Below are positions 30,774-64,000 of a stretch of 64,000 nucleotides of DNA, one piece after another. Within the stretch, counting starts at the first letter, position 1. Every line of letters begins with the position of its first letter. The DNA is from Anaerocolumna sp. MB42-C2. Its GTDB lineage: Bacteria > Bacillota > Clostridia > Lachnospirales > Lachnospiraceae. The stretch spans positions 4,241,501-4,305,500 of the forward strand of contig NZ_CP133190.1 in assembly GCF_030913705.1 (NCBI RefSeq). The letters run 5' to 3'. The notes under the pieces were generated by a model. It had not been told where the DNA came from and did no database searches. It saw only the letters and a program-made list of their open reading frames with translations. The position numbers and the translations under genes are program-made.

Positions 30774-32438
30774 ATGTCAGATGATTTTTTAAATAACACA
30801 AATAACTCAAATAACCAAAATAATCAGAATGATCAGTCCAATTCCAATACACAATATGACCAGACGAATCAAAGTGGTACCGGATTTCATCATTTTGAAA
30901 ACAATAATAGTAGCAGTATTACAGGCAGTGACAATGAAGATTATACTGTTAAATATACAAGTAATGCTGCACAAAATAGTCCAATTGGTGTGGGTCAAAA
31001 TATAACAAGTGATTTAACTCAAAATAATTCAGGTGAGGGGAGTCAGAATACCTCTGCTCCTTATAGTTTCTGGGCCGAGCAGATTGCAGCTTCTAACCCG
31101 AATGAATCAGGCTCAGCTTATCAAAGCGAACAGTTTTCCAGTTCTTATAATAATAACCCAAGTCATGTATTTGAAATGTCAGAAGAAAATGGAAACATAA
31201 GGAAAAAACCCAATGTATTCAAGAGGGCAGTTAAATTTGTATTAGGAGCAGCGGTTTTTGGTGTTGTTGCAGGAGCTTGTTTTCTTGGTTTTAACCTGGC
31301 TTATTATGAAATTAATCCGGATGCGGCTCCGATTTCTATTCGTGCCTATGGGGATAAGGGAGCTTTTGGGGGATTTCAGTTAAGCTTATCTGATTCTGTA
31401 AATAAAAAAATAGCAGCAACTACGGTATCACAGGAAGGAATTCAGCAAAAAACCGATGTTACAGATGTAGTAGATGCTACAATGCCATCAATCGTAACGA
31501 TTACCACTACTTATACGCAATCCTATGACTGGTTTGGACAACAGTTTGATCAGCAGAACGAAGGCGGTGGTTCCGGTATTATCGTAGGTAAGAATGATAA
31601 GGAATTATTGATAGCAACCAACAATCATGTTGTTGAAGGAGCAGATCCTATTAAAGTAAAATTTATAGACGGCACCGAAGCAACTGCGATTATAAAGGGA
31701 ACTGATGCGGTAGCAGACCTGGCGGTTATTTCTATAGATCTTAGTACAATTAAAGATGCTACTCTTTCTACCATAAAAGTAGCTAAACTAGGTGATTCGA
31801 AATCGGTTAAAGTCGGCGAAATGGCTATAGCAATTGGTAATGCATTAGGATACGGACAATCTACAACTGTAGGATATATCAGTGCGAAAGACAGAAAAGT
31901 AAAATTAGAAGACAAGACGATGGTATTGTTGCAGACCGATGCAGCGATAAATCCAGGTAACAGCGGTGGCGCACTATTAAATCTCAATGGAGAAGTAATT
32001 GGTATAAACACGGTTAAATATGCTTCCAGCGAAGTTGAGGGCATGGGTTTTGCCATTCCTATTTCAAGAGCTTTACCTATAATAAATGAATTAAAAAACC
32101 GTGAAATATTAAAAGATACTGAAAAAGGATATCTTGGTGTATATATTGAAGATGTAACGGAAGATATAGCAAGTACCTACAACTGGCCGGTAGGTGTTTA
32201 TGTCAAATCTACTGTAGAAGGCGGAAGTGCTGAAAAAGCAGGTATTATTGCCGGAGATATTATCACAAAAGTAAATGACACAGAAATAACTGCAGGTACA
32301 CAATTAAGAGAGAAAGTAACCTCCTATAGAGTAGGTACGGATATAAAAGTAACAGTTATGAGAAGTGCTAACGGTAAATTTACAGAAAAACAGATTACTG
32401 TAAATCTGGGTAAAAATCCGGAGACGAAAAAAAATTAA
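30774..32438 (+). CDS. HtrA/DegP-like membrane serine protease with PDZ domain
   Basis: This 554-residue protein has an unusual cytosolic N-terminal region of about 150 residues dominated by Asn, Gln and Ser, one membrane helix (about 162-185), a trypsin-like protease with catalytic triad His285 (NNHVV), Asp315 (ADLAVI) and Ser397 (GNSGGAL), and a C-terminal PDZ domain (about 445-545; YLGVYIEDVTE, GSAEKAGIIAGDIITKVN). It degrades or refolds misfolded exported proteins. ATG 30774 was chosen for GGAG (30763-30766) seven bases ahead. No CssRS-type box was recognised. Confidence 0.93.
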   Translation: MSDDFLNNTNNSNNQNNQNDQSNSNTQYDQTNQSGTGFHHFENNNSSSITGSDNEDYTVKYTSNAAQNSPIGVGQNITSDLTQNNSGEGSQNTSAPYSFWAEQIAASNPNESGSAYQSEQFSSSYNNNPSHVFEMSEENGNIRKKPNVFKRAVKFVLGAAVFGVVAGACFLGFNLAYYEINPDAAPISIRAYGDKGAFGGFQLSLSDSVNKKIAATTVSQEGIQQKTDVTDVVDATMPSIVTITTTYTQSYDWFGQQFDQQNEGGGSGIIVGKNDKELLIATNNHVVEGADPIKVKFIDGTEATAIIKGTDAVADLAVISIDLSTIKDATLSTIKVAKLGDSKSVKVGEMAIAIGNALGYGQSTTVGYISAKDRKVKLEDKTMVLLQTDAAINPGNSGGALLNLNGEVIGINTVKYASSEVEGMGFAIPISRALPIINELKNREILKDTEKGYLGVYIEDVTEDIASTYNWPVGVYVKSTVEGGSAEKAGIIAGDIITKVNDTEITAGTQLREKVTSYRVGTDIKVTVMRSANGKFTEKQITVNLGKNPETKKN

Positions 32439-61043: not shown

Positions 61044-61976
61044 ATGAAAAAGATAAAGAAAATATTAGTTGCAGTTTTAACAATAGCTATGATAGCTGCA
61101 TTAAGCGGTTGCAGCAAACAGGGCGGCACCACAACAGATACTACAGAATCAACCAATGAGACAACAAACGAAACAGAGGTAACAACAAAACCGGAAGACA
61201 CAGCAGAACCTACGGAAGCACCGGCTGGGGATGACTTATCCGGAACGATTACCATAACCGGTTCAACATCAGTGGAAAAACCCTTAACTGCAATGATAGA
61301 TGAATTTACTGCATTAAATCCGGATGTGACAATTAATTATACCGGAACCGGTTCTTCTGCCGGAATTTCCGATACATTAGCAGGATCTAATGACGTTGGC
61401 GCTTCTTCAAGAAACTTAAAACCGGAAGAAAAAGTGGATGGTTTAAAAGAAGTAACTTTTGCTTATGATGGTATTGCGGTGGCAGTAAATCCTAAAAATC
61501 CGATTACAGACATATCAACCGAAGATTTAGCTAAAATTTACAGCGGTCAGATTACGAACTGGAAAGATGTAGGTGGTAACGACGCTGATATCGTGGTTGT
61601 ATCCAGAGAAGGTGCATCCGGAACAAGATCCGCATTTGAAGAGTTAATCAAATTAGAAGATGCAGGCGGTTTAGTAGAAGATGCAACAGTTGTTGAGGGT
61701 AACGGTAACGTACAGACTTCAGTAGCAGGCAATGAAAATGCAATTGGTTATGTTTCTTTCTCCTTTATAGATCAAACTGTAAAAGGCATTAATGTAAACG
61801 GTGTTGAGGGTACTGCAGAAAAAGCAAAATCAAGTGAATATCCTTTATCCAGACCATTCCTCTTCGTTTACATGGAAGATAAAGCAACACCGGAAGTGAA
61901 AGCTTTCCTTGATTTTGCATTAAGTGATGAGGGACAGGGATTTGTTGAAGAACACGGAGGCATAAGAGTAGATTAA
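61044..61976 (+). CDS. pstS: Phosphate-binding lipoprotein PstS
   Basis: This 310-residue protein has a lipoprotein signal (MKKIKKILVAVLTIAMIA, lipobox LSGC, Cys23), a Thr/Glu-rich linker, and a phosphate-binding domain: ITGSTSVEKPLTAMIDEF, NYTGTGSSAGISDTLAGSND, VVVSREGASGTRSAFEEL (Ser/Arg phosphate contacts) and GYVSFSF. AGGAGGAAAGAG precedes the ATG. Its stop codon shares the A of the pstC start (TAATG), so translation is coupled. Confidence 0.96.
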   Translation: MKKIKKILVAVLTIAMIAALSGCSKQGGTTTDTTESTNETTNETEVTTKPEDTAEPTEAPAGDDLSGTITITGSTSVEKPLTAMIDEFTALNPDVTINYTGTGSSAGISDTLAGSNDVGASSRNLKPEEKVDGLKEVTFAYDGIAVAVNPKNPITDISTEDLAKIYSGQITNWKDVGGNDADIVVVSREGASGTRSAFEELIKLEDAGGLVEDATVVEGNGNVQTSVAGNENAIGYVSFSFIDQTVKGINVNGVEGTAEKAKSSEYPLSRPFLFVYMEDKATPEVKAFLDFALSDEGQGFVEEHGGIRVD

Positions 61977-62896
61977 TGAATAATAATGCATACAAAGAAA
62001 ATCAGATAAGCAAACGAAAAGAATACCCTGAGAAGGTCTTTCACGGAATATTTCTCTTAAGTGCCTTAGTAAGTGTACTCAGCGTTATCGCCATTATCGT
62101 CTTTGTGTTCTCCAAAGGATTAAAACCTTTCTTTGGAGATGATGCATACAGCTTCCTTAAATTTATAACCGGATTAAAATGGGATCCCGGCCATGATGTA
62201 TATGGTGTATTTTATATGATAGTCGGATCAGTATTAGCAACCCTGGGTGCAATTGTGCTCGGGGTTCCCATTGGTTTATTAACAGCTGTATTCATTGCTG
62301 AATTGGCCCCGAACAGATTAGTGGCACTTATTAAACCGGCTATTGAATTGTTGGCCGGTATTCCGTCCGTTATTTATGGAGCTTTTGGTTTGGGGGTAAT
62401 TGTACCTTTAATTAATAAAGTATCACCGACAGGACAAGGTGAATCCTTACTGGCAGTTATCTGCGTATTAACGATCATGGTATTACCTACCATTATTTCT
62501 CTTAGTGAAGCCAGTATCAGGGCAGTTCCAAAATCCTACCGGGAAGCATCCTATGGTTTAGGAGCTTCAAAAATACAAACCATATTTAAATCCGTCGTTC
62601 CGGCAGCCCGTTCCGGTATATTGACTGCAACCGTTTTAGGTATTGGCAGGGCAATCGGTGAAACTATGGCAGTAATGATGATTGCAGGTAATAATATTGG
62701 TGGACTTCCTACCAGTATCTGGTCCAAAGTCAGACCGTTAACCACTAACATAGCGATGGAGATGGGGTATGCATCGGGAAGACACCAGGATATGTTGTTT
62801 GCAACCGGAGTAATTCTCTTCCTGTTCATTATGGTAATAAATATTACATTGATTAAATTGACTGGAAAACTGGGTGAGCAGGGAGCAAGAAATTAA
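61976..62896 (+). CDS. pstC: Phosphate ABC transporter permease PstC
   Basis: This 306-residue protein has six membrane helices, a cytosolic start KENQISKRKEYPEK and the EAA loop EASIRAVPKSYREASYGLGA (about residues 180-199). GIPSVIYGAFGLGVI and IGRAIGETMAVMMIAGN are PstC signatures. One-base overlap with pstS; pstA follows after 22 bases. Confidence 0.95.
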   Translation: MNNNAYKENQISKRKEYPEKVFHGIFLLSALVSVLSVIAIIVFVFSKGLKPFFGDDAYSFLKFITGLKWDPGHDVYGVFYMIVGSVLATLGAIVLGVPIGLLTAVFIAELAPNRLVALIKPAIELLAGIPSVIYGAFGLGVIVPLINKVSPTGQGESLLAVICVLTIMVLPTIISLSEASIRAVPKSYREASYGLGASKIQTIFKSVVPAARSGILTATVLGIGRAIGETMAVMMIAGNNIGGLPTSIWSKVRPLTTNIAMEMGYASGRHQDMLFATGVILFLFIMVINITLIKLTGKLGEQGARN

Positions 62897-62918: not shown

Positions 62919-64000
62919 ATGGAAAAAAGAAATTGGAATGACAGAAAACTGAAAGATGGCATTTTACAGTGGTTCATATATTTATCCACCTTATTAACCG
63001 TTATGATTCTGGCTGTAATAATTGGTTTCATTCTATATAAAGGTATCCCCGGAATTAATGTACGCTTTCTCACAAGACAATGGGATGACAAAACAACCTT
63101 TGTAAATGTGGTTCAGAAAACAGATTCAGGAGCGAACAAGGAGGCTGAGTATGTTCCATCTCTTGGAATTACTTTAGTCCAGGATGGAGAAAATGTTGTT
63201 ATAGCAAAGATAGACAGTAATTCGCCGGTAAAAGCAGCCGTAAATATGAAAAAACAAGCTTATGCTTTAAAAGTAAAAGATATTATAACTAAATACGGTG
63301 ATGTAAAAATTGAAAAAATGACGGTAGAAAAAGCGGCAGAGGTTATGAAAGACGGAACCGGAACGGTCCGTATTAAAGTGACAAGACCAGGCGGAGGTAT
63401 CGTTCCGATGTTGGTTTCCACGATTTATATTATTTTATTGTCACTGGTAATCGCAGCACCGATTGGGATCAGTTCTGCCATATACTTAAATGAATATGCA
63501 AAACGGGGAAGAATTCTTAGTCTAATACGGTTTGCCATTCAGAACCTGGCAGGTATTCCTTCTATAATATACGGTTTGTTCGGTATGTTGTTATTTGTTC
63601 AGATTGCAAAAATGGAATATTCCGTATTAGCAGGTGCTTTAACATTAAGTATTTTGTTATTGCCGACGATTATTTCTACTACGGAAGAGGCACTAAAAGA
63701 AATACCAAAAGCATATCGGGAATCATCTTTCGGGCTTGGAGCCACAAAACTGCAAACCATAAGCAGAATTATATTGCCGGGTGCCCTGCCTGGTATTCTG
63801 GTCGCTATTATTTTAAGTATTGGAAGAATTGTGGGAGAATCTGCGGCATTGATTTGGACTGCAGGTACGGTTGCACAGATTCCGGAGGCCTTAGTGGGTG
63901 GCAAGGCCAGTGCCGCAACCCTCACAACTAAAATGTACTGGCTTATAAAAGAAACAGCGGATTTATCCACTGCCAGTTCCATAGCAGTTGTATTGCTGGC
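62919..64000 (+). CDS. pstA: Phosphate ABC transporter permease PstA with inserted PDZ-like domain (3' end outside window)
   Basis: The frame from ATG 62919 stays open to the window end (360 codons). One membrane helix (about residues 18-41) is followed by an external insert: residues 80-156 read like a PDZ domain (SLGITLVQDG, IAKIDSNSPVKAAV, LKVKDIITKYGDVKI, GTGTVRIKVTRPG). Then comes the usual PstA core: GGGIVPMLVSTIYI, APIGISSAIYLNEYAKRG, AGIPSIIYGLFG and EAA loop EALKEIPKAYRESSFGLGA (about 257-275). Normal PstA has only a short loop there. AAAAGG precedes the ATG closely. pstB is expected beyond the window. Confidence 0.93.
   Translation, partial: MEKRNWNDRKLKDGILQWFIYLSTLLTVMILAVIIGFILYKGIPGINVRFLTRQWDDKTTFVNVVQKTDSGANKEAEYVPSLGITLVQDGENVVIAKIDSNSPVKAAVNMKKQAYALKVKDIITKYGDVKIEKMTVEKAAEVMKDGTGTVRIKVTRPGGGIVPMLVSTIYIILLSLVIAAPIGISSAIYLNEYAKRGRILSLIRFAIQNLAGIPSIIYGLFGMLLFVQIAKMEYSVLAGALTLSILLLPTIISTTEEALKEIPKAYRESSFGLGATKLQTISRIILPGALPGILVAIILSIGRIVGESAALIWTAGTVAQIPEALVGGKASAATLTTKMYWLIKETADLSTASSIAVVLL

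Follow-up and report, generated by a model that had tools for sequence, protein, structure and literature searches.

The pstA gene at the end of a 64,000-nucleotide stretch of the Anaerocolumna sp. MB42-C2 genome (NZ_CP133190.1, positions 4,241,501 to 4,305,500; hereafter the window) raises the question of what a large additional segment is doing in the permease of a phosphate importer. In standard PstA, helix 1 leads almost straight into the conserved GGIxPM of the permease core, whereas in the window protein about 100 additional residues separate the two. The original prediction, made from the sequence, read this segment as a PDZ domain, a fold familiar mainly from the scaffold proteins of animals and the proteases of bacteria, and proposed several partners for it. 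The identity of the domain, its distribution and origin, and the readings of its role are considered below in this order.

The pst operon and its insert

The insert lies in the third gene of an operon that begins within the window as follows.

61044 to 61976, plus strand: pstS, an open reading frame for a phosphate-binding lipoprotein of 310 aa (TIGR02136, 226.8 bits against a cut-off of 206.6; PBP_like_2, E=6.5e-49)
61976 to 62896, plus strand: pstC, an open reading frame for a permease subunit of 306 aa (TIGR02138, 277.4 bits against a cut-off of 196.45)
62919 to 64000, plus strand: pstA with the PDZ insert, continuing past the window (TIGR00974, 247.1 bits against a cut-off of 193.45)
62958 to 63053, plus strand: PstA helix 1 region, about residues 14-45 (hydrophobic stretch in the sequence; helix 2-45 in the AlphaFold2 model)
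63090 to 63395, plus strand: PDZ domain, PstA residues 58-159 (strands and helices predicted by AlphaFold2; profile and structural matches)
63159 to 63170, plus strand: putative carboxylate-binding loop SLGI, PstA residues 81-84, of the form X-phi-G-phi (motif conservation)
63324 to 63350, plus strand: predicted PDZ helix alpha-B, PstA residues 136-144 (AlphaFold2 model)
63390 to 64000, plus strand: permease core, from GGGIVPM to the window end (BPD_transp_1, E=6.2e-16; matches E. coli PstA, 9k3s_A)

The full pstA encodes 384 aa in the genome (L009:3920-5074), the last 24 of which lie beyond the window, where pstB, phoU and two genes of the phoB (regulator) and phoR (kinase) types follow. Its membership in TIGR00974 is given by a score over the curated cut-off together with the pstS-pstC-pstA-pstB order at this locus, and E. 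coli PstA (9k3s; PstSCAB, TIGR00974) has the same permease core and the order pstS-pstC-pstA-pstB-phoU. PstS shows the normal domain order and ends in HGGIRVD. The closest named record found, from Anaerocolumna sedimenticola, is 86% identical over the insert region. Across the distinct insert loci, genes for PstS (47/48) and PstC (48/48) lie upstream and a PstB gene is present in 45/48.

The genome carries two further pst operons, with an insert-less PstA in both, and neither phoU nor phoBR was found in the 9.5-10 kb read around either of them. The second comprises S, C, A and B genes; its PstA has a loop of 8 residues in place of the insert, and its PstS (L010:6804-8195) is 463 aa long, with an additional C-terminal stretch of Ig-like appearance on visual inspection. 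The third (L011:4127-7006, at about 59-62 kb of genome contig C1) consists of pstS, pstC and pstA, with no PstB-like frame of at least 80 aa in the 4 kb past pstA.

Profile evidence and predicted fold

Scanned within the whole PstA, residues of about 80-158 fell short of the gathering cut-offs with both PDZ_2 (E=1e-4, 23.0 bits against 27) and PDZ (E=1.2e-4, 22.8 against 23.2). The excised insert scored 26.9-27.0 bits with PDZ (PF00595), over the cut-off of 23.2, and 24.9 bits with PDZ_2 (PF13180), below the cut-off of 27; in a scan of the whole genome, it reached 24.7 bits against Pfam PDZ, again over the cut-off. When the inserts of 27 relatives were scanned singly, PDZ_2 matched 16 and PDZ 14 (E<=1), before all other families (PDZ_6 with 7, the next with 4). 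Among eight relatives scanned as full proteins, four (L052, L060, L069, L071) gave no PDZ match at E<=1, and their assignment therefore rests on alignment with the other members. Elsewhere in the window, an open frame of 578 residues also exceeds the Pfam cut-off for PDZ, with 37.8 bits at positions 32115-32321.

Structure prediction with AlphaFold2 gave a PDZ fold of moderate confidence, with the same elements, for the full PstA (17 sequences; mean pLDDT 66.3, pTM 0.53, ten-residue blocks between 61 and 160 at 65-83) as well as for the insert alone (27 sequences; mean pLDDT 73.2, pTM 0.61). The predicted elements are strands 58-66, 84-89 and 92-98, helix 103-106, strand 122-126, helix 136-144 and strand 148-156, and the SLGI loop sits between strands 58-66 and 84-89 in both models. 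Among solved structures, the best match of the full model was E. coli PstA (9k3s_A), with Z 19.2 and an rmsd of 4.1 over 265 residues. Over residues 58-159 it matched the second PDZ domain of SAP97 (2awx_A), with Z 13.0 and an rmsd of 1.4 over 84 residues; the latter match spans Z 13.0-13.3 over both models at about 20% identity. For the insert-alone model, the best 50 structures listed by Foldseek and the best 50 listed by VIA-align were all PDZ proteins or complexes with them, PSD-95 being first by Z among the matches listed (13.5, rmsd 3.5 over 92), while no HtrA or CtpA PDZ stood among the best 50 listed in either comparison. Taken together, the Pfam score of the excised insert and the predicted fold bear out a PDZ domain after helix 1, an identification that we regard as nearly certain. 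The bounds first given for it, about 80-156, agree with the part that matches, but the domain begins near 58, with strand 58-66 preceding.

The original prediction had noted that this type of domain is usual in HtrA and CtpA proteases; the strand order predicted here is not that of HtrA. HtrA-type PDZ domains (PDZ_2, PF13180) are circularly permuted, as described in the available part of PMC6411480; the insert matches their profile, but below the cut-off, and has a strand ahead of the loop. Furthermore, its last predicted strand (148-156) runs directly into GGGIVPM and helix 2, and a permuted last strand could not be accommodated there. The strand order is thus predicted from the models to be canonical, or animal-type, rather than permuted. 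Since bacterial PDZ domains are described in that same part of PMC6411480 as circularly permuted, with canonical ones in Ctp proteases and in numerous bacteria, canonical order would not be new in itself. The PDZ domains of animal scaffold proteins (SAP97, PSD-95, PALS1; PF00595) share the fold, the strand order and the X-phi-G-phi loop with the insert, which differs from them in its identity of about 20%, its helix alpha-B starting with a hydrophobic residue, and its predicted place outside the membrane in a bacterial ABC permease.

Distribution and origin

Among 130 distinct PstA frames, drawn from best matches and hence not random, the loop after helix 1 measured 0-8 residues in 74 (including L136 and L143, probably partial frames of just some 157 aa) and 91-132 in 56. 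Most sampled PstA, including the other two copies of the genome, are without the predicted PDZ of about 100 residues between helices 1 and 2, and loop lengths fall into one range or the other; this is not an ordinary variable loop. Neither of the outcomes that the original prediction named as refuting it, a predicted structure without the PDZ fold or a loop shared by most PstA, came about. A search with the window protein gave an insert-spanning match in 17/61 genomes. Fourteen of these are among the 15 of the same genus (its own included; the fifteenth copy, L027, is interrupted by a contig end); the other three come from elsewhere in the order, one from a different genus of the family and two from different families. 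A profile covering the insert and helix 2 matched 18/392 genomes of an order sample (own included) over its full length, at 119-221 bits; the next-best match (65.6 bits) covered only the part after the insert. In the class sample, 9/391 genomes, among them the window's own, carry the insert, and two more (G634, G770) are diverged cases. The phylum sample yielded 2/398, again counting the own genome; these belong to that class as well, so that none was added.

A scan of named genomes, which used the single pattern GGGIxPM and missed other forms, returned 33 insert loci. Carriers were Anaerocolumna, Mobilisporobacter, Anaerosporobacter, Robinsoniella, Murimonas and further Lachnospiraceae, as well as Tissierellales, Soehngenia, Vallitaleaceae and metagenome-assembled genomes named just Clostridiales or Firmicutes. 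Two further insert loci are labelled Turicibacter (L071) and Defluviitaleaceae (L073); the former label, which would fall outside the clostridia, is suspect because the L071 row pairs with L073 on a 129-row tree of the permease core (support 97). Two diverged PstA (L114/L171 and L116/L172) carry inserts of 129-132 residues whose match to the insert profile starts only at about position 51; on their very long branch, these inserts are perhaps decayed or remodelled PDZ domains.

On a permease-core tree of 120 rows (54 with the insert, 66 without), from which nine long-branch or doubtful rows had been dropped, two of them with the diverged inserts (L114, L116), a single branch separates the two sets with support of 100/95, and no insert lineage is seen to revert to a short loop. 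When the long rows were kept (129 rows), the insert-less paralogue L073_1, with a branch of 1.71, fell inside the insert group, which requires two changes. The tree is unrooted; given the near restriction of the insert to one class, a gain is the simpler reading, and the domain seems from these sequences to have arisen once among clostridia and then to have been kept.

Position and binding groove

The N-terminus of PstA lies inside the cell, a topology that places the PDZ outside the membrane, beside the transporter mouth. An extracytoplasmic PDZ after helix 1, as originally proposed, is supported. The X-phi-G-phi loop is conserved in 48 of the 54 distinct insert sequences (41/54 if alanine is not counted as phi) and G83 in 52/54. 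As the carboxylate-loop motif is mostly conserved, use of the groove for peptide binding is plausible on sequence grounds. The first residue of helix alpha-B is hydrophobic in 49/53 sequences, a feature that indicates class II-like ligand specificity in PDZ domains and suggests such a specificity here.

With a mean distance of 1.81 against 0.43, the domain nevertheless diverges far faster than the permease core, and some members show erosion: L065 is without the alpha-B region, L028 is shortened and the loop motif is gone in 6/54. Fast divergence and erosion imply that the PDZ may be tolerated rather than essential. They also count in favour of domain accretion, in which the insert would bind no specific ligand and would at most space or stabilise the mouth of the transporter. 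The absence of a ligand signal (see below) adds to this reading, while the retention of G83 and of the motif in most members despite the divergence speaks against it, as does the lack of any return to the short loop on the 120-row tree, notwithstanding the placement of L073_1 on the larger one. On balance, we consider accretion rather unlikely.

Candidate partners of the domain

The mechanism that we favour begins with what appears to have been a single insertion, in a clostridial ancestor, of a PDZ of canonical topology into the chain between transmembrane helices 1 and 2. The domain would act as a docking module retaining a partner at the outer transporter mouth, and the likeliest partner would be the lipoprotein PstS, held by a surface or an internal strand and not by its C-terminus. 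Considered jointly and with the partner left unnamed, the inserted PDZ and its docking role stand at an evenly balanced probability; docking of PstS in particular, proposed by analogy, is more tentative and falls somewhat below that. MalF P2 of the maltose importer has another fold and another place in the chain than the PstA insert. It is likewise an extracytoplasmic region of an ABC-importer permease, though larger (residues 91-271) and in another permease, and according to the available part of PMC3150292 it contacts the binding protein, which provides a precedent for PstS docking; the likeness in role would be one of analogy. A PstS gene also lies beside insert-less PstA (36/37 loci), and PstS therefore does not need the PDZ.

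Canonical PDZ ligands have a hydrophobic C-terminal residue. Recognition of the PstS C-terminus, as proposed at the outset, would draw on the fairly uniform register of these ends at insert loci, with V next to last in 32/48 and I fourth from last in 38/48. The last residue, however, is hydrophobic in just 3/48 distinct insert-linked PstS against 1/38 distinct controls, counts in which ten loci with a permuted or permuted-looking PstS (L071, L073 and eight controls) were kept, and PstS ends in both sets are mostly charged or polar at this position. The three hydrophobic ends (L166, L167, L170) come from related genomes of one family (f77), the lone control (L175) is circularly permuted, and the insert loci L071 and L073 have a circularly permuted PstS with a different C-terminus. 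The PstS C-terminus is thus not supported as the ligand, and we hold this form of binding to be very improbable. A mirror-tree comparison, limited to those 29 of 49 distinct loci in which the operon is complete and PstS is of the normal form, gave partial correlations with the PDZ of 0.21 for PstS, 0.30 for PstC and 0.23 for PhoU; since this cytoplasmic control scored like PstS, the comparison does not single out PstS. A ligand signal for the PDZ emerged neither from the PstS C-termini (48 + 38) nor from the mirror-tree (29 loci).

Apart from PstS, the kinase encoded downstream deserves attention. The PDZ might touch the extracytoplasmic Cache-like domain of PhoR, and the state of the transporter would then be read outside too, besides through PhoU/PstB inside. 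Of the three pst operons, only the PDZ-type adjoins phoU-phoB-phoR within the stretches read, and its PhoR has an extracytoplasmic Cache-like region (sCache_like, Cache_WalK), whereas E. coli PhoR is described as lacking a periplasmic sensory domain (PMC5775613, available part). PhoB/PhoR-like genes, called by BLAST only, lie within 3.2 kb downstream at 31/42 insert loci against 15/34 controls, after six insert and three control loci with too little downstream DNA were dropped and under a criterion relaxed after the first result, the stricter one having left three controls with enough downstream DNA. The loci are related, which confounds the linkage, leaving it suggestive and not a clean test; at 11/42 insert loci no such gene lies downstream, although L052, L053 and L168 have one upstream. 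Moreover, the partial correlation between the PDZ and the PhoR outer domain was 0.16, a value as high being found in 23/300 permutations. Of the coupling to Pho signalling first suggested, what stands is a possible link to PhoR, weakly indicated by the downstream genes; a signalling contact appears unlikely to us. A composite module for both signalling and docking, the groove of which would clamp either the PhoR Cache domain or a PstS strand and so open a second phosphate-sensing route outside, we judge less probable still.

A link between Pst and the extracytoplasmic proteases HtrA and CtpA, or substrates of these, with protease coupling also part of the original prediction, has in its favour that most bacterial PDZ domains occur in proteases (PMC6411480, available part). 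Nevertheless, no protease was recognised by eye among the open reading frames in the 12 kb read on either side of and across the operon; the strand order predicted for the insert is unlike that of HtrA, and a search of the genome with the insert profile gave no second clear hit (the next at E=0.58). The proposal is not supported so far, and its likelihood is put marginally lower even than that of PstS C-terminus recognition.

Novelty and significance

Both the permease family and the domain are known; their combination was not found described in the open-access literature (titles and abstract beginnings), either for PstA or for any ABC permease. The words transporter and permease are absent from the main text of a survey of microbial PDZ proteins (PMC6411480), in its available part, where 7% of the PDZ proteins are unclassified and could include a PDZ permease. 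The finding would extend the known PDZ-carrying proteins to an ABC importer and give an instance, in a bacterium and outside proteases, of the canonical strand order. According to the available part of PMC5775613, it is still open how phosphate status passes from Pst to PhoR, and a permease with an additional outer interaction domain, in a genome where two insert-less copies can serve as natural controls, gives direct genetic access to this question.

Apparent circular permutation of PstS

A circularly permuted-looking PstS is encoded in eight control operons (L174, L175, L181, L182, L183, L195, L199, L200) and at two insert-type loci (L071:3922-4872, L073:4013-4876). The arrangement was read from the full sequence for L071, L073, L175 and L181, from the order of Pfam profiles for L181 and L073, and from the ends for the others. 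In these proteins, what is normally the second half, with a SREDGSGTRGAF-like motif, comes first, and the first half comes last, ending near TDWSEVQ.
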